From assembly GCF_000016665.1 (NCBI RefSeq), contig NC_009523.1, forward strand, positions 1,550,001-1,614,000: a stretch of DNA of 64,000 nucleotides, in the 5' to 3' direction. This DNA comes from Roseiflexus sp. RS-1. Its GTDB lineage: Bacteria > Chloroflexota > Chloroflexia > Chloroflexales > Roseiflexaceae. The notes beneath the pieces were generated by a model, which did not search any database, was not told the origin of the DNA, and worked only from the letters and a program-made list of their open reading frames with translations. Made by a program: the position numbers and the translations under genes. Below, piece after piece: positions 10,412 to 36,147 of the stretch; position 1 is the stretch's first letter; every line of letters starts with the position of its first letter.

Positions 10412-13400
10412 ATGTGCAGAGAATACGCTGCGCGTCAACGCCAGATGCTATGCACGGTCTTCCCGTGTACGTGCGGAGAATACCCAACATCGATAGCAGC
10501 CGGTTCTCAGTTCTCAGTTCTTGGTTCTCAGTTCCTGGTGACAACTATCGCTCCCGCTACCCTGACACTCATCATTCTGGCGCTCATACTCACCGGCGCG
10601 TTGATCGCGCGCGCGTTGCCGGTTGCCTGGCGTAGCAGCGATCCGATCGAACGCTGGTTCGAATATGCCCTGATCGGCGCGCTGCTAAACGGATGGCTGG
10701 CATTCACCCTGGCGCAGATTGGCATCTTCTCTGCGCCGCTGCATGGCGCTGTGGTTGCCGTTCTGTGCATCATCGCCGCACTGATCCGCCGCGCATCCGG
10801 CAGTCAACCCGCCACGCCCGATGTTCAACCTTCAGCACCTGGCGTTCCACCTGCCGCGCCCGACGTTCCACCTTCAACGTTCAACGTTCCACCTGCCACG
10901 CCCGACGGTCCACCTTCAACGTTCAACGTTCCACCCGCCACGCCCGACGTTCCACCCGCCACGCCCGACGTTCCACCTGCCACGCCCGACGTTCCACCCG
11001 CCACGCCCGACGTTCCACCTTCCACGTTCAACGTTCCACCTTCAACGTCCGACGTTCCACCCGCCACGCCCGACGTGCCACCTTCAACCTTCAACCTTCA
11101 ACCTTCAACCTTCAACCTCCCACGCCCAACCTTCAACCTTCAACGCCCAACCTTCAACCTTCTCCTCTCCGCCATCCTGCTGCTCTTCGTCTTCCTCGTC
11201 ACTCCTCCGTTCGAGACGATCATCGGTGTGCGTGATGCGGGCGTCTATGCGAATGCAGGGTTCATCATGGTACGCACCGGTTCACTGACCTTTACCGATC
11301 CGCTGGTGGCGCAGATCGCCGCCGATCAACAATCTCCCGATCCATCGCTCGCCGATGCCGCCCGTCAGGCGGAAACCAACGTTCTCGGCGTGCAGAATGC
11401 GCAGCGCTTCATTGCCACCCGCCTGCGCGCCGCAGGGTTTTTTATCGATCAGGGCGACCTTGCACGCGGGCGTGTCGTCCCGCAAGGATTGCACCTCTTC
11501 TCCGCCTGGATTGGATTGCTCGCCGCGTTCTTCGGGATGCACGGCGGATTGCTGGCGCCAGCGGTTACCGGTCTACTGGGGGTCTGGAGCGTCGCTTTGC
11601 TCGGTCGGCGCATCGCCGGTCCGTGGGTCGGACTGCTGGCGGCGCTCTTCCTTGCGCTTAGTGCCGTTCAGGTCTGGTTCAGTCGCTATTCCACCGCCGA
11701 AACAACAGCGCAGTTCCTCATCTTTGCTGGACTCTACGCCTTCGCTAGAGCCTTCGGATCTTCGACGTTCAACGTTCAACGTTCCACACCCAACCTTCAA
11801 CCTTCAACCCTCAACGTTGAACGTTCAACGCCCAACGTTCCACTTTCCGCGTCCAACGTTCAACGTTCAACCTTCAACGTTCAACCTTCAACGTTCAACG
11901 TTCAACCTTCAACCTTCAACGTTCCACCTTCCACCAACGTTCAACCTTCAACGTTCAACGTTCCACCTTCCACCAACGTTCAACCTTCAACGTTCAACCT
12001 TCAACCTTCAACCTTCAACCTTCAACCTTCAACCTTCCACGCCCTGCTCGCCGGGCTGGCATTCGGACAACTCGCCCTGACGCGCATCGAGTTCTTCCTG
12101 GTCACAGGACCGCTGGCGCTCTACCTGATCTTCATCTGGCTTGCGCGCCGCTGGACGCTGCCGCACACTGCGCTGCTGGCGGGCGCCGGGGTGATGCTGC
12201 TCCACGCCGGATTGCAGATCGTGTTCCTGGCGCGCGCCTATTTCTTCGATACGCTCTTCGCCCGTCTGCAAGATTTTGCGCTCACCGCAGCCCTGGCGTT
12301 GCCGTTTCTCACCCCCACGTTGCGCCAGGTCTATCTGCTGCGCCCCTGCTCGCGCCTGACGATGCAACCATGCCCGCCGATCGCCGGGATGCCGCCGACC
12401 GCCGATGCACCGCTCAACTGGGCGCGTATCGGCACCGAACTTTTCGTCGTCATCCTGATCATCATCGCCTTGATCGTGGTGCGTCGCCTGAGTCTGGTCG
12501 CCCACTTCGTATCGCTGCTTGCGCGTCTGAGCCATCCGCTGCGCCTGATCGCTGCGGTTGTCGTCATTGTGCTGGGAGGGTATACGTACCTTATCCGCCC
12601 GCAGATCCTGTCGCCTGCGACCATCGCCGCGCTGCCCGCCTGCCTGACGCCGGCGCAACTGACCAGCCCACAGGGCGCGTGTCTGACCCTCCAGGGGTAT
12701 GTCGGGGCGCCGATTGCCACTCCCGCGTATGTCGATCCGCTCGCCGGATGGATCGATCATCTCATCGGTATGGCGCGCGGTCGTTCCAACCCGCCGCGCG
12801 AAGCCTGCATTGCGCTGCGCCGCGAGACGCTGCCGCCATCCGCCGATGGGCGCACCATGCCGGAAGTCCTTCGAGACGGTCTGATCCGCGAGGCGGACGT
12901 TGCGCCGGAGATCCTCGCCGATCTGCGCGCCTGCGACCGCTATGTGCTGCGTGACCTGTTCGGCGTGGCGCAGGCGAACCTGGTGCGCCTGGGATGGTAC
13001 CTGTCGCCGCTGGGGATTGCACTCGCGCTTGCCGGTCTGGCGCTGATGGTCTACCGCATCAACGCGACCTCCTGGCTGTTCCTGGTTATTGCCGCCGTTG
13101 CATCGGTGGTCTTCCTGCGGCTGACCTACGGCGCCAGCGATCAGCACTATATCTACATCATGCGACGCTACGTGCCGCACGTCTATCCGGCGTTCGCCAT
13201 CGGCATCGCTTACGCCATCGCGCATCTGACGCTCGATCTGCGATTGTTCGCCGATATGCTGCGATCCATCGCACGAAAGGCGCATCGCAACGCCTCAACA
13301 GGACTGCAACGTCCAACAACGTTCAACGTTCAAGGTTCAATAGCGTTCAACGTTCAAGGTTCAATGTTCAGGGTTCCACCTTCAACCCCCAACCTTCAAC

Positions 13401-14593
13401 CTTCAACCTTCAACCCCCAACCTTCAACCCCCAACCTTCAACCTTCAACCCCAAACCTTCAACCCCCAACCTTCAACCTTCGCGTTCTCCTCACCCTCGC
13501 CCTTGTCCTGTTCCTGGTCGTCACCGGCAGACCGATCTACCGTCACACCGAATATGCCGGAGCGATCACCCAGATCGGCGCAATGGCAGCCCAACTCGAT
13601 CCGGGCGCGATTGTGCTCATGCGCGGCGGCGCTCCATCGTATGCACAGGCGCGTGACATTCCCGATCTGCTGGCAACACCGCTCACCTTCGGGTTTGGTG
13701 TTGACGCATTCGCGCTGAAGAGTCGCGATCCCGGACGGTATGCACCGCAACTGGCGCGCTACATCCGTCGCTGGCACGATCAGGGGCGCCCGGTGTACCT
13801 GGCGGTCAGCGCCAGCGGTGCGCTGACCCTCCCCGGATGGCGTCTTGAACCGGTCGGGCGATTCCTCCTCGACCTGCCGGAATATGAACAACCGACCGAT
13901 CACAAACCTTCCGCCGTGCAGCGGTTTACCCTCGATTTTGCGCTCTATCGCCTGACACCCGGCGCCGCAGGAGAAACGCCGCCGGTCATTCTGCCCGACG
14001 ACTACGCCTACCAGGTGCGCGGGGTCTACCGTGCGGAGCGCATCAACGACCGCCTGATCGCCTGGACCGACGGCGACGCACTCTTCCGCCTGCCGGCGCC
14101 GAAGGATGAGCCACTGAGCATTTCAGTGACGCTGGCATCCGGCGCGCGCCCGACGGCGTTGACCGGCGAGACCTGCCTGGCGCTCGCTGCTGAACCCGGC
14201 TTCTCCGTCGAAGAGGCAGAACAGGCAGTATTCACCACACCGGTATGCGTTACCCCCGGCACCGAACCAACCACCGTCACGCTGGCGATTGATCCTCGCC
14301 AGATGCCCTCCTCACCAACCGGGCATCTCCTCCTGCGCGTGCGCAGCCCTGCCTTCATACCCGCCCGCGACGATCCCGCCGGCCACGATCCGCGCCGCCT
14401 GGGAGTGCAGATTGTGGGGTTAGGGGTTCGTCGGGCGGCGCCCCCAACGCAGGCAGAGACCGTTCCGCCACCGACGCGCCAGCGTAGCACGCCGTCGTAT
14501 GGTCAAGACCTCAAGGGTCGGGGACGCCCTTCATCCCTGCTCACAGACGACGTTCAACCCTCGGTTCGCTTGTTTTCATGCAAGGCTCCCTGA
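10412..14593 (+). CDS. Very large polytopic membrane protein, GT-C type glycosyltransferase-like
   Basis: A 1393-residue multi-spanning membrane protein. The first membrane helix is at about residues 47-70. Hydrophobic segments alternate with loops, and a soluble C-terminal domain follows about residue 1040. The early region with VGVRDAGVYANAG, then a helix-rich block with WFSRYSTAETTAQF, resembles PMT/ArnT-like GT-C enzymes that move sugars from lipid carriers; this is a fold-level inference. Three loops (about residues 131-249, 450-543 and 965-1022) are low-complexity PSTFNVQ/PATPDVP repeats encoded by 7-bp arrays. The start is uncertain: ATG 10412, or GTG 10538 immediately before the first helix. 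It may glycosylate surface proteins of the Tad genes downstream. Confidence 0.65.
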   Translation: MCREYAARQRQMLCTVFPCTCGEYPTSIAAGSQFSVLGSQFLVTTIAPATLTLIILALILTGALIARALPVAWRSSDPIERWFEYALIGALLNGWLAFTLAQIGIFSAPLHGAVVAVLCIIAALIRRASGSQPATPDVQPSAPGVPPAAPDVPPSTFNVPPATPDGPPSTFNVPPATPDVPPATPDVPPATPDVPPATPDVPPSTFNVPPSTSDVPPATPDVPPSTFNLQPSTFNLPRPTFNLQRPTFNLLLSAILLLFVFLVTPPFETIIGVRDAGVYANAGFIMVRTGSLTFTDPLVAQIAADQQSPDPSLADAARQAETNVLGVQNAQRFIATRLRAAGFFIDQGDLARGRVVPQGLHLFSAWIGLLAAFFGMHGGLLAPAVTGLLGVWSVALLGRRIAGPWVGLLAALFLALSAVQVWFSRYSTAETTAQFLIFAGLYAFARAFGSSTFNVQRSTPNLQPSTLNVERSTPNVPLSASNVQRSTFNVQPSTFNVQPSTFNVPPSTNVQPSTFNVPPSTNVQPSTFNLQPSTFNLQPSTFHALLAGLAFGQLALTRIEFFLVTGPLALYLIFIWLARRWTLPHTALLAGAGVMLLHAGLQIVFLARAYFFDTLFARLQDFALTAALALPFLTPTLRQVYLLRPCSRLTMQPCPPIAGMPPTADAPLNWARIGTELFVVILIIIALIVVRRLSLVAHFVSLLARLSHPLRLIAAVVVIVLGGYTYLIRPQILSPATIAALPACLTPAQLTSPQGACLTLQGYVGAPIATPAYVDPLAGWIDHLIGMARGRSNPPREACIALRRETLPPSADGRTMPEVLRDGLIREADVAPEILADLRACDRYVLRDLFGVAQANLVRLGWYLSPLGIALALAGLALMVYRINATSWLFLVIAAVASVVFLRLTYGASDQHYIYIMRRYVPHVYPAFAIGIAYAIAHLTLDLRLFADMLRSIARKAHRNASTGLQRPTTFNVQGSIAFNVQGSMFRVPPSTPNLQPSTFNPQPSTPNLQPSTPNLQPPTFNLRVLLTLALVLFLVVTGRPIYRHTEYAGAITQIGAMAAQLDPGAIVLMRGGAPSYAQARDIPDLLATPLTFGFGVDAFALKSRDPGRYAPQLARYIRRWHDQGRPVYLAVSASGALTLPGWRLEPVGRFLLDLPEYEQPTDHKPSAVQRFTLDFALYRLTPGAAGETPPVILPDDYAYQVRGVYRAERINDRLIAWTDGDALFRLPAPKDEPLSISVTLASGARPTALTGETCLALAAEPGFSVEEAEQAVFTTPVCVTPGTEPTTVTLAIDPRQMPSSPTGHLLLRVRSPAFIPARDDPAGHDPRRLGVQIVGLGVRRAAPPTQAETVPPPTRQRSTPSYGQDLKGRGRPSSLLTDDVQPSVRLFSCKAP
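10503..10537 (+). repeat. Five-unit heptanucleotide array (GTTCTCA type)
   Basis: Five in-phase 7-bp units, GTTCTCA, GTTCTCA, GTTCTTG, GTTCTCA, GTTCCTG. They end directly at an in-frame GTG (10538). This is a different word from the TTCAAC arrays downstream but has the same period. Confidence 0.8.
10802..11158 (+). repeat. In-frame heptanucleotide array A (51 units)
   Basis: 357 bp that divide exactly into 51 seven-base units such as GTTCAAC, CTTCAAC, GTTCCAC, CTGCCAC and GCCCGAC, all in one register. They encode seven-residue repeats (PSTFNVP, PATPDVP) inside the large membrane protein. Confidence 0.9.
11760..12040 (+). repeat. In-frame heptanucleotide array B
   Basis: 281 bp comprising 39 heptamers, mainly GTTCAAC and CTTCAAC, plus two CAAC tetramers that look like heptamers lacking three bases. 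The reading frame through the glycosyltransferase-like gene is preserved. Confidence 0.9.
13304..13477 (+). repeat. In-frame heptanucleotide array C
   Basis: 174 bp made of 24 heptamers (CTTCAAC, GTTCAAC, GTTCAAG, CCCCAAC variants) interrupted by two trinucleotides (AAC, AGC), so the host gene stays in frame. Confidence 0.85.
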
Positions 14594-14689
14594 TGCCATA
14601 AAACGGGGGCGTTCTCGCAGCCAGGTCGTTATTTGTCAAGTCGCAGATCGCATCAGGAAGCCATCCGTCAAAAAATGATCGAACGGTGA

Positions 14690-14836
14690 GTTCAACGTTC
14701 AACCTTCAACGTTCAACCTTCAACGTTCAACCTTCAACGTTCAACCTTCAACCTTCAACCTTCAACGTTCAACGTTCAACCTTCAACCTTCAACGTTCAA
14801 CGTTCAACCTTCAACCTTCAACGTTCAACGTTCAAC
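14690..14836 (+). repeat. Intergenic heptanucleotide array D (21 perfect units)
   Basis: 147 bp of uninterrupted GTTCAAC or CTTCAAC units, 21 in all, varying only at the first base (G or C). Degenerate units continue to about 14890. The preceding 14594-14689 shows no feature. The whole array lies between the glycosyltransferase-like gene and the tadE promoter. Confidence 0.95.
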
Positions 14837-14951
14837 AGGTAACCTTCAACCTTCAACCTTACAACCTTCAACCTTCAACGGTTAACGTGCCACCCCCTCG
14901 CCTCTTGTCATCAAACCGTAATCTTCGATCCGTCTCAGGACTAACGGACTA

Positions 14952-15565: not shown

Positions 15566-17302
15566 ATGGCACGACGATTTCAATCAGGACAGGCGCTCGT
15601 CGAGTTTGTTATCGCCTCGACGCTTATCCTGCTGCTGCTGGCGGCTGCGGTCGATATCGGGCTGCTGTTCTTCAACATGCAGGGGTTGACCACCGCTGCG
15701 CAGGAAGGCGCCACGTATGGCAGTCGTTATGTGATCGTCCGATCGGATGGCGCGGTCGATCTCGATTACGACATGATCCGCACACGCGTGCGCCAGGAAG
15801 CAGGAACGACCGGCGGCATCAACTTCGTCAATATGTACGATCTTAACAGTGATGCCATTCCCGACGCCGCCGACACCAACGGCGACGGCGTGCTCGACCA
15901 GTTCCAGTACTTCCTCGACCAGAACGGCGACGGGCGCGCAATCGGCGATCCGGTGACCGGGCTGATCCCCGCAGGAACCGAACCGTCCGGCTACGTCCGG
16001 TTGATCGATCACTACATCCTGGTGCAAGCGATCGAGGATGTCTTCCCGTTCAACGGCAATCCGCTGGGACCGGAGGACGCCGACGGCAATCGCGCCAACG
16101 ACCTGGCGCCCGACGTGGATACAACGCCCTGCGCCAACCTGGCGGATCCGAACCGGCAGTGCTATGTCTTCGTCATTGTGAAATCCGACTACAATACCGT
16201 GTTTGGCTTCACGCCCGCCTTTGGCGATAAGGTGCCGCTCAGTTCGCGCTTTGTCATGCCGCTGCGCGCCGGTTTTGTCTCGCCGGGCGCGCCGACCAAT
16301 CCGCCGGTGGTGCAAACCAATACGCCAACACCCACGCCGACGAATACGCCGACGCCAACCGCAACCAACACGCCAACGCGCACACCGACGAATACGGCAT
16401 CGCCGACAACGACGAATACGCCGACCAATACGCGCACGCCAACCAATACGCCAACGCGCACCAATACGCCGACACGCACCAATACGCCAACACCGAGTAA
16501 TACGCCGACGCGCACTCCCACATTCACGCCGACCGCCACGCCATGCGCTGGCGGCACAGGCAACGGTCTGCGTGGCGACTACTTCATCTACACGCCGGGC
16601 AGCAGTGTGGGAACGACGAACTTCTTCCCCGGCGCACCGGTGGCGAGCCGCACCGAAAATATCAACATGGCGCAGAACAATAACTCGCCCATTACTGGCG
16701 TAGGAAATAATTACTTCTCCGTGCGCTGGACGGGTCAGGTTGAGCCGCTGTTCAGCGGGGAGTATACCTTCTTCGCCGATACTGATGATGGTGTGCGCGT
16801 GTGGGTCAACGGCGTCCAGATCATCAATGACTGGCGCACCAAGTCTGGTGAAGCGAATGGCAGGATCACCCTGACCGCCTGCCAGCGGGTCAGCATTACG
16901 GTTGAGTACTTCGAGTGGACCGGCAACCAGCGCGCGATCCTCAGCTGGTCGCATGCGAACCAGCCGAAGCAGGTCATTCCGGTTGCGCGGCTCTACTCCA
17001 GCGGCGCGCCGCCGGCAACGGCGACCCGTACGCTGACGCCGTCGCGCACGCCGACGTTCACGCCGAGCAACACGCCAAGGCCGACCAACACGCCGACGCC
17101 GAGCAACACGCCGAGGCCGACCAACACGCCGACGCGCACCAATACGCCGACCAATACGCCACCGGCGACCAATACGCCGACGCGCACGCCAACGTTCACG
17201 CCGACGCGCACGCCGACGTTCACACCGTCGCTGACGCCGTCGAACACGCCGACGCGCACGCCAACGTTCACGCCGACGCGCACGCCGGACACCGGTACGT
17301 AA
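15566..17302 (+). CDS. TadE-like protein fused to a PA14 domain with Thr/Pro linkers
   Basis: A 578-residue surface protein. The N-terminal TadE-type segment ([18 protein letters not shown]) gives a single anchor. Asp-rich calcium-loop-like sequences ([20 protein letters not shown]) lie at about 90-130. A Thr/Pro/Asn linker (about 248-330) leads to a PA14 domain at about 331-482 (LRGDYF start, then [20 protein letters not shown]). A second Thr/Pro tail runs to the end. PA14 is a beta-barrel often found in glycan-binding adhesins and glycosidases. A GAGGGAGA site precedes ATG 15566. The fusion suggests a pseudopilin tip adhesin; this is inference. The Thr/Pro stretches are potential O-glycosylation sites. 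Confidence 0.85.
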
Positions 17303-20283: not shown

Positions 20284-21045
20284 ATGCAGAGAGCACATTG
20301 GTATGCCGCCATCAATGTAGAAATCGAACCACCAGAGCACAAGCATCCGCGAGAGTCAGTTGGGATAGACGTTGGCATCAAAACGTTAGCTGTTCTCTCA
20401 GATGGCGTACAGTATGAAAACCAAGTACTGCTACGCTCAAGACTGAGAAAACTAAAGCGTTTGAACCGCGAATTATCCCGCCGACAAGAGGGAAGCGGTC
20501 GCTGGAACCGCACCAGGAAGAAGCTGGTGAAGCTCCACCGCCGAATAGCGAACAAGCGATTGGATTACACGCACAAGATGACAACCAGGATTGCGCGCAC
20601 ATACCGCATTATCGGCGTGGAAGATTTGAATGTCCCCGGAATGCTGCGTAACCGGCGCCTGGCTCTGTCAATCGCTGATGCCAGGTTTGGTGAGACTCAA
20701 CGACAGTTACGCTACAAGTCTGAGTGGTACGGCGGCATATTGGTAGAGGTTGACCGTTTCTTCCCCTCTAGTCGGCTATGCCCAATGTGCGGAGGAATCA
20801 AATCGGATCTGACGTTGCGTGACCGAATGTTTATTTGTGCGTGTGGATATACTGCTGATAGGGATGTGAATGCTGCTCAGAATATTGAGCGGGAAGCATT
20901 ACGTTTGATGAACAGAGGCCGGAGTGGGTTCACGGACTCTCTAAACGGACGTGGACAGGATATAAGACCTCTTGAGGCAATCCCGGATGAAGCGTCAAAA
21001 TGGCCGAAGAAAGGCGGCCTTCCAGACCTGCTGTGGTTTAGGTAG
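20284..21045 (+). pseudogene. tnpB: TnpB (IS200/IS605-type RuvC nuclease), N-terminally truncated
   Basis: A 253-residue remnant of a TnpB RNA-guided nuclease; full-length family members are about 370-420 residues. The RuvC aspartate (GIDVGIKTLAV), the glutamate (GVEDLNVPGM), the zinc finger (CPMCG...CACG) and the final aspartate (DRDVNAAQNI) all remain. The N-terminal guide-recognition part is absent: an in-frame stop at 20257 lies just upstream, and no TnpB-like sequence was found in other frames from 20165. No TnpA is adjacent. The remnant lies between the VWA gene and a Kelch-like gene. Confidence 0.8.
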
Positions 21046-21070
21046 GTTTGGTAAACCAGGTATATGCATC

Positions 21071-23659
21071 ATGACTCGAATGACACGCATGCCAGCCACG
21101 GTGCGCGCGCTGACACTCGTCGTCGCGCTGCTGACCGTTCTTGCGATCCTTCCACCCGCACCGGTCGCCGCCAGCGTGATCAAGGTTGTTGCCCTGGATG
21201 ATACTCAGCCGGAGTTCGGCGCCGGTTCACGCACCCTGACCGCAGTTATTCCAACGACGCTGAGCAATGATCCGATATCCGGGCAGGTGACCGAACCGTA
21301 TGCCGGCGCCAAACCCGGCGATCAGGGTGGGCTTGCCATGGCTGCCATTCGCGCACTGCGCTGGGGCGCCATCCCGGATAGCCCGCTCCCCGCAGCCCGC
21401 ACCGAAATCGGCGCAGCGGTCATCGGGAACACGATCTGGGTGGTCGGCGGTTCTTCAGGTGGCACGGTGCCGACCTATCACGACACGGTCTATCGCGGCA
21501 CGGTCAATACGAATTACGGACAGCCCGGCGCCGGAGTCATCAGCTGGACGACTTCCATATCATTGCCATCCGTCAGCCACGCAGATACATCGCCGTTCAA
21601 CAATAATCCGCTTGCGCCGCGAACCAACGCGGCGGTCGCCGCGCTGCGCACCGGCGGTAACGCGGGGTATCTCTACGTGATCGGCGGCGCTGTCGCCCCT
21701 GGGTCTACATTCTCGAGCAATTCGGTGATCGTCGGTGATGTCGATGCGAACGGGAACCTGACCTGGCGTACCTCGCCGACGTACAAACTTCCGCCAGGCG
21801 TCGGGCTGGAAGGCGCGCGCGCTTTTGTACATACAACCGCCGCCGGCAAGACATTCCTGTACGTCGTCGGCGGGCGAAACGATCCGCCCGGTGCGCCTCC
21901 GCCAACCCTTTCCAATCGCGTCTACTACGCCGAGATCAACCCGTCGAACGGTAATCTTAACCTCGGCGGCGACAACCGCACCTGGCAGTTTGTGACGATG
22001 CCGTCGAGCGTATGGAACACCGCCGTGACCGTCGGGCGCTATACCAGTGCAGACGGAACGTTGACGCAGGATCTGTTCTTCATCTACGGCGGTGGAACCA
22101 ACGCCGGTATCGAAAATATGGATACCGGCACCGTCTGGAAAGGGGTTATCAACCCGACCACCGGCGCGATCACCTGGGAGGATAGCACCACCGGCGGGAA
22201 TGCCGTTATTCCCGGCAATCGTAACAGTCACGGCGCCGTCGAGTTTAACGGCGCAATCTACCTGATCGGCGGACGCAGCGGCGGCACGATCAATCGCAAT
22301 GGCTATGCCTCCTATGTCGATCCGGCCAACCTGCGCATCTTCAAAGATGGAGCGCTCAACTTCTATCAGGACGACTTCGGCGCGCTGCCTTTTGCAGCAA
22401 ATCCTGGACGGCGCAATGCGGGTGTGGTGCTGGTGCCGACCAGCAACCCGAACTATGCGTTCGCCTACCTGATCGGCGGCACCGATGGAACCGCGCCGTC
22501 CAGTCAGGTCTTCCGCGCGACGATCGGACCCAACCTCGACGACCAGACCTTCTATCCGCCGACCGGCTACTACTACTCGAAGCCCTTCTCGATGCTCGAC
22601 CTGATCAACGAGCAGCAGGCCACCGTGCGTAAAATGACCTGGCTGACGAATATCGATCCGGCGAATGGCGGTGATATCGAAGTCGAGTACCGCGTCTACT
22701 CCCCATCGAGCGGCAACTGTGCCGACACAGAAGGTGGATGGACGCAGGCGCGTGATCCGGATGCCGGTGGAACGCGCTTCTCGAAGTTCAACCCGAGTGG
22801 CGCGGCGTATGCCATCAATGCCCAGGAGTATAGCGAGAGTCAGTTGCTCCCGCCGGGCAACTGCTTCCAGTACCGCCTCACCTTCCGCCGCGGCTCTGTC
22901 CAGAATGCCTCGCCGGTGCTGCTACGCCTGGGTATGGAAGTGATCGTTCCGGGCAACCCCGATCTGAACTGGCCCGTCAATGCCGTCACCACCACCCAGA
23001 ACGCCAATGGCACCACCAGAGGCGTCGAGGTGCGCCTGCGCAACCAGAACCTGACCGACAGCGGACCGACGCAACCGGCGAATGTGTGCCATGCATCGCA
23101 ACCGGGGTGCAATCCGGAGGGTACATTCTTCGTTGATGTGTTCATCTTCCCGCCGGGTGTAACGCCGATCTCGCCAACGCTACCGCTGTTCGCTCCTGGA
23201 GGCGATAGCCTGAGCAACCCGGCGCTTGCGCCATACCACCGCGCCTGTCTGCAAATCCCGAAATGGGTGATGCAGAAGGATACCACGTTCCTGATTGCGG
23301 AAACCTTCCGCTGGAGCGACATCAAAACGGTTGGCATCGATGGATGCGTCTCGGCTGCAACCAACGCCAGCAATGGAACCGGTAAAATCCTGCGCGACTT
23401 CCTTGATCAAGGCAGCGGAACCTACAAGGTCATTCTGGTTGCCGACACTCACACCGACCTGAAAGGATTGGTGTACGAGTCCGATGTGCCAAGCGGCGAC
23501 CATGTGGCGGAACGGAACAATGTCAGCGCCATCTTCGACGTCGTGTTTGTGGCGGGAGGTGCGCCGCCGCCGCCTGATAGCGGTCCTCAACCGCCGCCGG
23601 ATAACCCGCCGCCTGATAATGGCATCAGGCGCGTCTTCCTGCCGCTGGTGACTCGTTGA
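21071..23659 (+). CDS. Secreted Kelch-like beta-propeller protein
   Basis: An 862-residue exported protein. MTRMTRMPATVRALTLVVA begins a classical signal peptide with likely cleavage after PVAAS. Repeats of about 60-90 residues with YVIGG, YVVGG, YGGG or YLIGG strands, each preceded by R-x-x-A/G, mark a galactose-oxidase/Kelch-type propeller at about residues 60-500. The rest is beta-rich, perhaps CARDB-like. A PPP-D-G linker leads to the C terminus RRVFLPLVTR. ATG 21071 is chosen over the longer open frame because the signal peptide starts there. The TGA stop lies inside the first unit of a heptamer array. It may be a surface component of the Tad region; the ligand is unknown. Confidence 0.75.
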   Translation: MTRMTRMPATVRALTLVVALLTVLAILPPAPVAASVIKVVALDDTQPEFGAGSRTLTAVIPTTLSNDPISGQVTEPYAGAKPGDQGGLAMAAIRALRWGAIPDSPLPAARTEIGAAVIGNTIWVVGGSSGGTVPTYHDTVYRGTVNTNYGQPGAGVISWTTSISLPSVSHADTSPFNNNPLAPRTNAAVAALRTGGNAGYLYVIGGAVAPGSTFSSNSVIVGDVDANGNLTWRTSPTYKLPPGVGLEGARAFVHTTAAGKTFLYVVGGRNDPPGAPPPTLSNRVYYAEINPSNGNLNLGGDNRTWQFVTMPSSVWNTAVTVGRYTSADGTLTQDLFFIYGGGTNAGIENMDTGTVWKGVINPTTGAITWEDSTTGGNAVIPGNRNSHGAVEFNGAIYLIGGRSGGTINRNGYASYVDPANLRIFKDGALNFYQDDFGALPFAANPGRRNAGVVLVPTSNPNYAFAYLIGGTDGTAPSSQVFRATIGPNLDDQTFYPPTGYYYSKPFSMLDLINEQQATVRKMTWLTNIDPANGGDIEVEYRVYSPSSGNCADTEGGWTQARDPDAGGTRFSKFNPSGAAYAINAQEYSESQLLPPGNCFQYRLTFRRGSVQNASPVLLRLGMEVIVPGNPDLNWPVNAVTTTQNANGTTRGVEVRLRNQNLTDSGPTQPANVCHASQPGCNPEGTFFVDVFIFPPGVTPISPTLPLFAPGGDSLSNPALAPYHRACLQIPKWVMQKDTTFLIAETFRWSDIKTVGIDGCVSAATNASNGTGKILRDFLDQGSGTYKVILVADTHTDLKGLVYESDVPSGDHVAERNNVSAIFDVVFVAGGAPPPPDSGPQPPPDNPPPDNGIRRVFLPLVTR

Positions 23660-23781
23660 GCGTTGAAGGTTGCGCGTTGAAGGTTGCACGTTGAAGGTTG
23701 CACGTTGAAGGTTGAAGGTTGAAGGTTGCACGTTGAAGGTTGCACGTTGAAGGTTGGCGCGTTGAAGGTTCAACGTTGAAC
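23655..23781 (-). repeat. Heptanucleotide array E (reverse orientation)
   Basis: Eighteen units read on the plus strand as GTTGAAG, GTTGCAC and similar, in register except for one 8-base unit at 23753-23760. It starts with GTTGAGC, whose TGA is the stop codon of the Kelch-like gene. It abuts the 163-bp repeat four bases later. Confidence 0.9.
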
Positions 23782-23785
23782 TTTC

Positions 23786-23948
23786 GTAACTACTCAGGCT
23801 GCCTGGCGTTCAGCGATTGAAATCGCCTCTGGAAGGCTTTTCGCCGGGCGTCCACCTGCGTGGACGCTGCCACGGCGACCGCCCAGGCGGTCGCCCGGCG
23901 CGAAGCGTCCTCTCAGGCGCGGTTTCAACCGTACGCCTGAGCAGTTAC
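23786..23948. repeat. 163-bp multi-hairpin repeat, copy 1
   Basis: The ends GTAACTACTCAGG and CCTGAGCAGTTAC are 13-bp inverted repeats with one mismatch. Inside are successive hairpins: CGATT/AATCG, GCGTCCAC/GTGGACGC, GGCGACCGCC/GGCGGTCGCC and TCAGGCG/CGCCTGA. There is no coding capacity. A second complete copy starts at 24032. Confidence 0.8.
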
Positions 23949-24031
23949 CAACATTTCAACGTTCAACGTTCCAACCTTCAACGTTCCCACGTTCAACGCT
24001 CCCACGTTCCCACGTTCAACGCTCAACGTTC
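23949..24031 (+). repeat. Mixed 7/8-bp repeat spacer between repeat copies 1 and 2
   Basis: TTCAAC-type units (GTTCAAC, GTTCCAAC, CTTCAAC, GTTCCCAC, GCTCCCAC) of seven or eight bases fill the interval between two multi-hairpin repeats. Confidence 0.75.
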
Positions 24032-24193
24032 GTAACTACTCAGCCGCCTGGCGTTCAGCGATTGAAATCGCCTCTGGAAGGCTTTTCGCCGGGCGTCCAC
24101 CTGCGTGGACGCTGCCACGGCGACCGCCCAGGCGGTCGCCCGGCGCGAAGCGTCCGCTCAGGCGCGGTTTCAACCGCACGCCTGAGCAGTTAC
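24032..24193. repeat. 163-bp multi-hairpin repeat, copy 2
   Basis: Almost identical to copy 1, one base shorter, with the same terminal inverted repeats and internal hairpins. The hairpin TCAGGCGCGGTTT / CAACCG...CGCCTGA is uninterrupted, so it shows the empty target of the 116-bp element found in the composite copy downstream. Confidence 0.8.
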
Positions 24194-24253
24194 GAACATT
24201 TCAACGTTCAACGTTCCAACCTTCAACGTTCCCACGTTCAACGCTCAACGTTC
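24194..24253 (+). repeat. Heptamer spacer between repeat copies 2 and 3
   Basis: Degenerate TTCAAC-type units (GTTCAAC, GTTCCAAC, CTTCAAC, GTTCCCAC, GCTCAAC), equivalent to the spacer after copy 1 but shorter. Confidence 0.7.
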
Positions 24254-24613
24254 GTAACTACTCAGGCCGCCTGGCGTTCAGCGATTGAAATCGCCTCTGG
24301 AAGGCTTTTCGCCGGGCGTCCACCTGCGTGGACGCTGCCACGGTGATCGCCCTGGCGTTCAGCGATTGAAATCGCCTCTGGAAGGCTTTTCGCCGGGCGT
24401 CCACCTGCGTGGACGCTGCCACGGCGACCGCCCAGGTGGTCGCCCGGCGCGAAGCGTCCGCTCAGGCGCGGTTTATGGTCTTTGAATAAATAATCCGGTA
24501 TAGCCCGCGCAGGCGGGCTTTGCCCTGGTTAGCCGAGGGCTTCAGCCCCACGGCTAGCGCGGTAGAGCGGATTTAATTTTCAATCTCCATCAACCGCACG
24601 CCTGAGCAGTTAC
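24254..24613. repeat. Composite multi-hairpin repeat, copies 3 and 4, interrupted
   Basis: Copy 3 keeps the left end (GTAACTACTCAGG) but stops after CGGTGATCGC near 24350. There it joins the CCTGGCGTTCAGCG of copy 4, which lacks its own left end. Copy 4 is split by the 116-bp element (24475-24590) and finishes with CCTGAGCAGTTAC. The junction looks like recombination between tandem copies. A few TTCAAC units follow to about 24642. Confidence 0.8.
24475..24590 (-). mobile_element. 116-bp palindromic element, copy 2
   Basis: The reverse-oriented partner of the 19991-20106 element, the same length and about 90% identical. It is inserted between CGCGGTTT and CAACCGC of a multi-hairpin repeat. 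Comparison with the intact copies at 23786 and 24032 shows no lost or duplicated base, and the insertion point is the loop of the CGGTT/AACCG hairpin. Confidence 0.8.
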
Positions 24614-24698
24614 GAACCTTCAACCTTCAACGTGCAACGTTTCTTCCACCTGTCAAGTCATTGATGCCCTGCGATACTAATCAGGGCTTGATCTCGTG

Positions 24699-35964: not shown

Positions 35965-36137
35965 GTTCAACGCTCCCACGTTCAACGTTCAAGTTCAACG
36001 CTCCCACGTTCCCACGCTCCCACGTTCAACGTTCAACGTTCAACCTTCAACCTTCAACGTTCAACGTTCAACCTTCAACCTTACAACCTTCAACGACCAA
36101 CGCTCCCACGTTCAACCTTCAACCTTCAACCTTCAAC
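35965..36137 (+). repeat. Heptanucleotide array G between mreD and pbp2
   Basis: About 170 bp of GTTCAAC/CTTCAAC units mixed with 8-base GCTCCCAC/GTTCCCAC units, filling the whole mreD-pbp2 gap. It ends seven bases from the pbp2 start codon, so the pbp2 translation initiation region is made of repeat sequence. Confidence 0.85.
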
Positions 36138-36147
36138 GACCACCCCC

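Follow-up and report, generated by a model that had tools for sequence, protein, structure and literature searches.

The stretch of DNA analysed here, which we call the window, comprises 64,000 nucleotides (1,550,001-1,614,000) of the genome of the hot-spring bacterium Roseiflexus sp. RS-1, a single contig of 5,801,598 bp; coordinates below refer to the window unless the genome is named. On its plus strand, a 1393-aa ORF (10412-14593) encodes a multi-spanning, glycosyltransferase-like membrane protein with three translated heptamer arrays and an extended C-terminus; its match to Pfam PMT_2 is weak and lies below the cut-off (E 0.0066). The end of this ORF runs into a 128-bp dispersed element resembling a MITE (14560-14692), which holds the gene's present stop codon. 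On the same strand follow a perfect 21-unit array of (G/C)TTCAAC (14690-14836), a decayed tail (14837-14879) with four more exact units and indels, which is the portion common to the nearest congener, and a gene for a TadE-like protein (PF07811; 14952-15542). A lone GTTCAAC unit (14552-14558, plus strand) lies on the far side of the element from the array. Another gene, for a TadE/PA14-domain protein (15566-17302), carries long Thr-Pro-Asn repeats with periods of 12-48 bp (16315-17287) that vary among congeners.

The array measures 147 bp, that is, exactly 21 heptamers in a single register, 11 of them GTTCAAC and 10 CTTCAAC. An earlier reading made from the sequence alone (the sequence-only reading) had described 21 heptamers differing only at the first base and lying between genes, and was exact on both counts. 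The first bases follow the order GGCGCGCGCCCGGCCGGCCGG, in which 2-unit and then 4-unit higher-order blocks can be recognised, and Tandem Repeats Finder (14691-14880) reports a period of 28 besides 7; block structure and period together are the mark of array growth by block duplication. A CRISPR array can be ruled out, since the units are contiguous and without unique spacers. The core had also been called quasi-palindromic, which is true of GTTCAAC (it differs from GTTGAAC only at the centre) and not of the asymmetric CTTCAAC. The strong folding z-scores of the array should be given no weight, as they are expected for any self-similar repeat set against dinucleotide shuffles.

Within the window, (G/C)TTCAAC has 141 matches on both strands against about 11 in base-shuffled copies. 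These cluster at 10.82-11.16, 11.77-12.03, 13.32-13.48, 14.69-14.88, 23.66-23.78 (mostly minus), 23.96-24.02, 24.21-24.24, 24.62 and 35.97-36.14 kb, and every further site listed by the sequence-only reading holds the word on one strand or the other. Directly after the 3' end of an ORF at 20972-23659, GTTGAAG alternates with GTTGCAC on the plus strand (23662-23781; array on the minus strand). Short mixed arrays of STTCAAC and GTTCCAAC (23949-24253, plus) border a 245-bp tandem duplication, two CTTCAAC units occupy 24618-24631 (plus), and an interrupted, intergenic array of 16 STTCAAC units (35965-36138, plus) is antisense to its flanking genes. The wider segment at 23768-24433 combines the 245-bp duplication with an 81-bp duplication of a GC-rich palindromic segment, with heptamers at the edges of the copies, and looks like the product of recombination at heptamers.

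Nor is the word confined to the window. The genome holds 325 exact trimers, 215 on the plus strand and 110 on the minus strand, against none for the word read backwards. This imbalance is what one might expect of a chromosome-scale polar motif, a signal for replication, segregation or recombination; an assembly artefact is a further idea. We hold both to be very improbable: dnaA lies at 838 and plus and minus arrays are interspersed over 0-2.8 Mb of one replichore, so there is no replichore rule and an orientation linked to replichores was rejected; the genome is a single contig, and related arrays stand at orthologous sites in congeners.

In 1.264 Mb not selected for arrays (evenly spaced genome regions plus the window), period 7 accounts for 63 of the 131 tandem arrays with at least three copies. 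Periods 6, 8 and 9 account for three, one and one, and periods 14, 21 and 28 together add 17. Other heptamer words of RS-1 include TTCAACC/TTCAACG, the group GTTCTCG/GTTCCTG/GTTCTTG/GTTCTCA, TGCAACC and ATAGCCG. With period 7 so dominant and so many words in use, (G/C)TTCAAC is therefore one word of a larger heptamer system, and the suggested parallel with the cyanobacterial STRRs, as a genome-wide heptamer family, is supported. Other organisms carry the word too. Among the matches listed, runs of at least five units occur in Verrucomicrobiota, Bacteroidota, Cyanobacteria, Planctomycetota, Proteobacteria and other groups, and the word was found in 11 of 301 Chloroflexota genomes (backwards control, one of 301). 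Strict mixing of G and C first bases is not universal and was rejected as such: outside Roseiflexus and some Prevotella, nearly all arrays are pure C or pure G. A literature search returned no paper naming heptameric repeats with Roseiflexus, nor (G/C)TTCAAC as a bacterial repeat.

Because seven is a multiple of three plus one, each strand of an array reads alike in all three frames. As can be read off the sequence, (S)TTCAAC is open in every frame and encodes P/R-S-T-F-N-L/V-Q, and the opposite strand, GTTGAA(S), has TGA in every frame. Genes of RS-1 were called with a home-made hexamer-based caller trained on this genome, with which starts are uncertain. Among arrays of at least three units between co-directional genes, GTTGAAS runs with the genes in 25 and against them in four; in eight further arrays the stop codon of the upstream gene falls inside the array, and all six arrays wholly within ORFs lie in the open, stop-free sense. 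A prediction set beforehand for 40 new, unselected 20-kb regions gave GTTGAAS with the genes at 4:0 plus one stop-in-array case. The combined orientation is 29:4, excluding the nine stop-in-array cases (two-sided sign test, about 1e-5).

Intergenic GTTGAA(G/C)-sense arrays in RS-1 sit close to stop codons. As supporting evidence only, the same proximity appears in various phyla among the matches listed, where GTTGAAS-sense arrays lie nearer to a stop than to a start (medians 39 vs 143 bp, n=27, p=0.012) at loci drawn with an exact five-unit pattern, several of them from the same genome in some cases, and with genes called as longest ORFs. STTCAAC-sense arrays among these listed matches show no preference for stop or start (n=15).

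The array in the window is one of the four exceptions, its open strand running with the genes. By the frame rule the upstream gene should then run on, and it does so. We compared the locus in five congeners (G301-G305), with one genome per species, most of them fragmented drafts that may mis-assemble arrays. The RS-1 and G301 proteins possess 41-46 extra C-terminal amino acids, reading through heptamers, and those of three other congeners stop earlier. In G301 the extension ends directly after the heptamers; in RS-1 it crosses one heptamer and ends inside the 128-bp element.

The same gene also carries arrays in its interior. The sequence-only reading had listed the arrays at 10.8, 11.8 and 13.3 kb and overlooked that one large ORF contains all three. 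These are array 1 (10807-11162), a PPATPDV/PSTFNV loop with a 21- and 42-bp higher-order repeat, array 2 (11760-12041), a PSTFNV/L-Q loop, and array 3 (13317-13481), all on the plus strand; heptamers of another kind, GTTC(C/T)(C/T)(A/G), lie just 5' of the likely true start of the gene (10503-10539, plus). The repeats of loop 1 drifted to PPATPDV and were then re-amplified as units of 21 and 42 bp. In five species the three loops stay in frame, spanning 0-96, 0-82 and 9-132 aa, within a conserved core that is 77-92% identical between species. The inserts measure 96 aa in RS-1 against 17-39 aa in congeners for loop 1, 82 against 0-60 aa for loop 2, and 70 against 9-132 aa for loop 3, and the RS-1 loops are largely derived from heptamers. 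In G302 and G303 the same loops carry a GGCGGTGCAATGCAACGCCTC-type repeat, in frame, in place of the heptamers.

At the array site itself, G301, whose downstream gene is 97% identical, is the nearest congener, and the positions equivalent to 14562 and 14854 abut there, with about three units between them. G302 has GAGAACC-type and GGGTTAG-type heptamers with a few STTCAAC units at this site, and other repeats occupy it in G303, G304 and G305, so that the array in its 21-unit form is specific to RS-1. Six further array sites (A-F) also differ in length and units across the congeners compared, and at site A the heptamers are absent altogether in G301. Unit number at the orthologous sites compared differs between species, as seen in one genome each, mostly drafts. 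The sequence-only reading had held that identical arrays in all relatives would argue against an active repeat family; array length and presence proved variable among them. Elsewhere in the window, the segment 19990-21058, with an ORF resembling TnpB/IS605-OrfB (20284-21045), is missing in G301, where its flanks lie about 100 bp apart; it is a recent insertion.

The 128-bp element has imperfect terminal inverted repeats of 10-13 bp (CTCGGTTCGCT / AGCGAACGGT), multiple copies and no coding capacity, as a MITE should; any target site duplication would be hidden by its repetitive flanks. RS-1 has nine copies of it, G301 has eight, and G304 has a single diverged one. Sixteen of these 18 are flanked on both sides, within 60 bp, by (G/C)TTCAAC or GTTGAA(G/C) units; of random positions, 5.4% have any such unit within this distance. 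Either the element prefers heptamer arrays for insertion, or the arrays copy it among themselves. One might go further and suppose that the element, or a relative, carries or seeds the arrays by leaving heptamers at its ends, since these contain GTTCG, which resembles the heptamer, and since units adjoin so many copies. We think this quite improbable, because RS-1 has 325 trimers but only nine copies, the element is missing from most arrays, a copy in RS-1 (L311) lies in heptamer-free DNA, relatives bear arrays at sites A-F where the element never sat, and the word also occurs in phyla outside those searched for the element.

Arrays of this word in RS-1 are also joined to a second heptamer family, GTTC(C/T)(C/T)(A/G) (GTTCYYR), which has no stop on either strand. 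In all 12 intergenic regions of RS-1 where both families occur, GTTGAAS precedes GTTCYYR and shares its strand; by neighbourhood this same-strand order is found in 14 of 15, the exception being the in-ORF arrays of the window. The junction GTTGAAC-CCG-GTTC (GTTGAACCCGGTTC) has eight exact occurrences in RS-1 and two in G301, each of them marking the GTTGAAS/GTTCYYR boundary, and the match in a third species falls in coding DNA. A 50-bp spacer common to the composite arrays at 283 and 363 kb favours copying between arrays. The link to other repeats that the sequence-only reading could not place thus consists of this second family with its shared junction and of the element inserted in arrays. 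To our knowledge, no bipartite structure is known for the cyanobacterial STRRs. Across congeners, the six sites A-F, which are of this composite kind, keep the general order, purine-rich words after the stop and GTTCTCR before the start, with CCCCTAA-type words midway in several of them. A second inserted element (GAGCCTATCCGAATAACCCGGCG...), whose end sequence is repeated, lies within a GTTCYYR array at genome positions 4,352,147-4,352,540.

One should ask whether such a composite is a functional intercistronic RNA element, in which GTTGAAS stops translation in all frames, GTTCYYR serves as an unusual leader, and a translational or terminator factor is bound, as has been suggested for the TAACTGA repeats. 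Its fixed order, its single strand and the retention of its grammar at the six congener sites despite turnover speak for this, as do published parallels: TAACTGA just upstream of starts (PMC4679880) and sense-strand GGGAATC no more than 50 bp from stops (PMC4692102). In the first data set GTTCYYR was also oriented 16:2 with the genes, often 0-17 bp before a start. Neither property held up in the 40 unselected regions, where orientation was three with the genes, two against and three antisense at gene 3' ends, and where the predicted tight distances to starts failed. An oriented GTTCYYR placed tightly before starts, a prediction set beforehand, was accordingly rejected, and a phylum-wide GTTCYYR family was rejected as well (four of 301 Chloroflexota genomes); because the second family failed replication on its own, we claim the composite and propose no rule for GTTCYYR alone. 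As RNA, the bipartite arrays fold no better than shuffles do, and a hairpin across the junction was rejected on this basis. Close relatives can lack the entire array at an orthologous site, as G301 does at site A, and the flanking genes have no obvious common function. We regard the RNA element as unlikely. The more speculative idea of a general bacterial grammar, in which purine-rich, stop-bearing words follow stops and pyrimidine-rich words precede starts, fused in Roseiflexus as a copied RNA-level module (GTTGAAS)m-CCG-(GTTCYYR)n that would separate the translation of neighbours, we consider slightly less likely still.

At the other extreme lies pure neutral polymerase slippage at heptamers (the polymerase-footprint idea), with neither copying between loci nor selection on orientation. 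The dominance of period 7 and the block duplications fit, and in many bacteria no long simple sequence repeats (SSRs) are commoner than heptanucleotides (Mrazek et al. 2007, cited in PMC4679880 and PMC4692102). As a full account it appears improbable, for the 29:4 orientation, the identical junctions at eight loci and the element in the arrays at 16 of 18 copies demand more.

With somewhat better than even confidence, we therefore read the array as a species-specific heptameric SSR expansion, most likely not a dedicated regulatory site, shaped by block gain and loss, ectopic copying and a frame filter. Units would be gained and lost in blocks through slippage or unequal exchange; we infer slippage from differences between species represented mostly by draft genomes. 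Arrays, junctions and resident elements may reach other loci as copies when similar arrays recombine ectopically, so that movement by recombination, which the sequence-only reading had suggested, gains indirect support; the element copies within arrays could reflect insertion preference instead. A reading-frame filter would then decide where arrays persist. The stop-bearing strand would be favoured after ORFs since it ends the gene there, while with the open strand the gene runs on, and inside ORFs only the open strand would survive, as in-frame loops. The frame filter leaves unexplained the fixed order of the two families and their position before start codons; since it cannot account for that order, the composite may have a role in mRNA. 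We found no sign of a dedicated regulator for the heptamer arrays, and no evidence, including from bipartite-array folding, for the protein-binding array that had been suggested.

Read as an SSR expansion, the array may be compared with several kinds of known repeats. With long heptanucleotide SSRs it shares an exact 7-bp tandem unit, a mostly intergenic position, many genomic sites above chance, variability between species and a host that is a large-genome non-pathogen. It differs from them in that several words are combined in Roseiflexus, in a set order and through a common junction, and in that arrays are translated as in-frame loops. The TAACTGA repeats of marine Beggiatoaceae, Cyanobacteria and Bacteroidetes have their stop-bearing strand with the genes and their open strand in ORFs, change in 7-step indels, recur as the same word in distant phyla, overlap gene ends and adjoin start codons (PMC4679880). 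The Roseiflexus arrays resemble them in strand, in overlapping the ends of genes, in the stop-free orientation within ORFs, in 7-bp steps and in reaching distant phyla. They differ in their words (STTCAAC and GTTCYYR), in greater length and in a mixed G/C first base, and GTTGAAS hugs stop codons whereas TAACTGA hugs start codons.

In Xanthomonas, GGGAATC repeats occupy the sense strand at most 50 bp from a stop, with no replication-strand preference (PMC4692102). The purine/G-rich sense strand within about 50 bp of stops and the absence of a leading/lagging preference are common to them, to GGGGA(T/C)T of Nostoc and to the present arrays. A G-quadruplex would take at least three consecutive G per unit; the Roseiflexus arrays are not of the quadruplex-forming kind, and GTTGAAG offers at most GG across units. 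The neighbourhoods of GGGAATC and GGGGA(T/C)T are reported as more stable (PMC4692102), whereas the Roseiflexus orthologous sites compared differ between species. The cyanobacterial STRRs, as represented by the Calothrix heptamers cited in PMC4692102, are likewise dispersed tandem heptamers, with other words. These shared traits place the finding with the known heptanucleotide repeats; what is new here is the combination of words in a copied, ordered composite, the element it hosts, and the translated loops that vary between species.

Why 7-bp repeats dominate among bacterial intergenic tandem repeats, and whether they have any role, is an old question. With its many ordered arrays, its congeners at graded distances and its clear frame rule, Roseiflexus makes slippage, recombinational copying and selection on orientation separable. 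It also shows how simple repeats can become large, rapidly changing loops in a membrane protein with the frame intact. Annotators should be warned that heptamer arrays create false ORFs and gene extensions.

Two other loci deserve mention. In G304 (C76:10700-11000; L265), intergenic GGGGTTAG heptamers followed by CCCCTAAC heptamers form a long inverted repeat between two genes, which could fold as a hairpin. In RS-1, a CRISPR array with the repeat ATTTCRGCAATTTCGRCTCGTTGAAGAGYACTGAAAC lies at genome positions of about 2,320,000-2,325,000, and a composite heptamer array is located at 2,314,245-2,314,520, between a cas6-like gene and cas1 (names given from reading the translations); in RS-1, G301 and G304 alike, this array provides the upstream gene with its stop codon.
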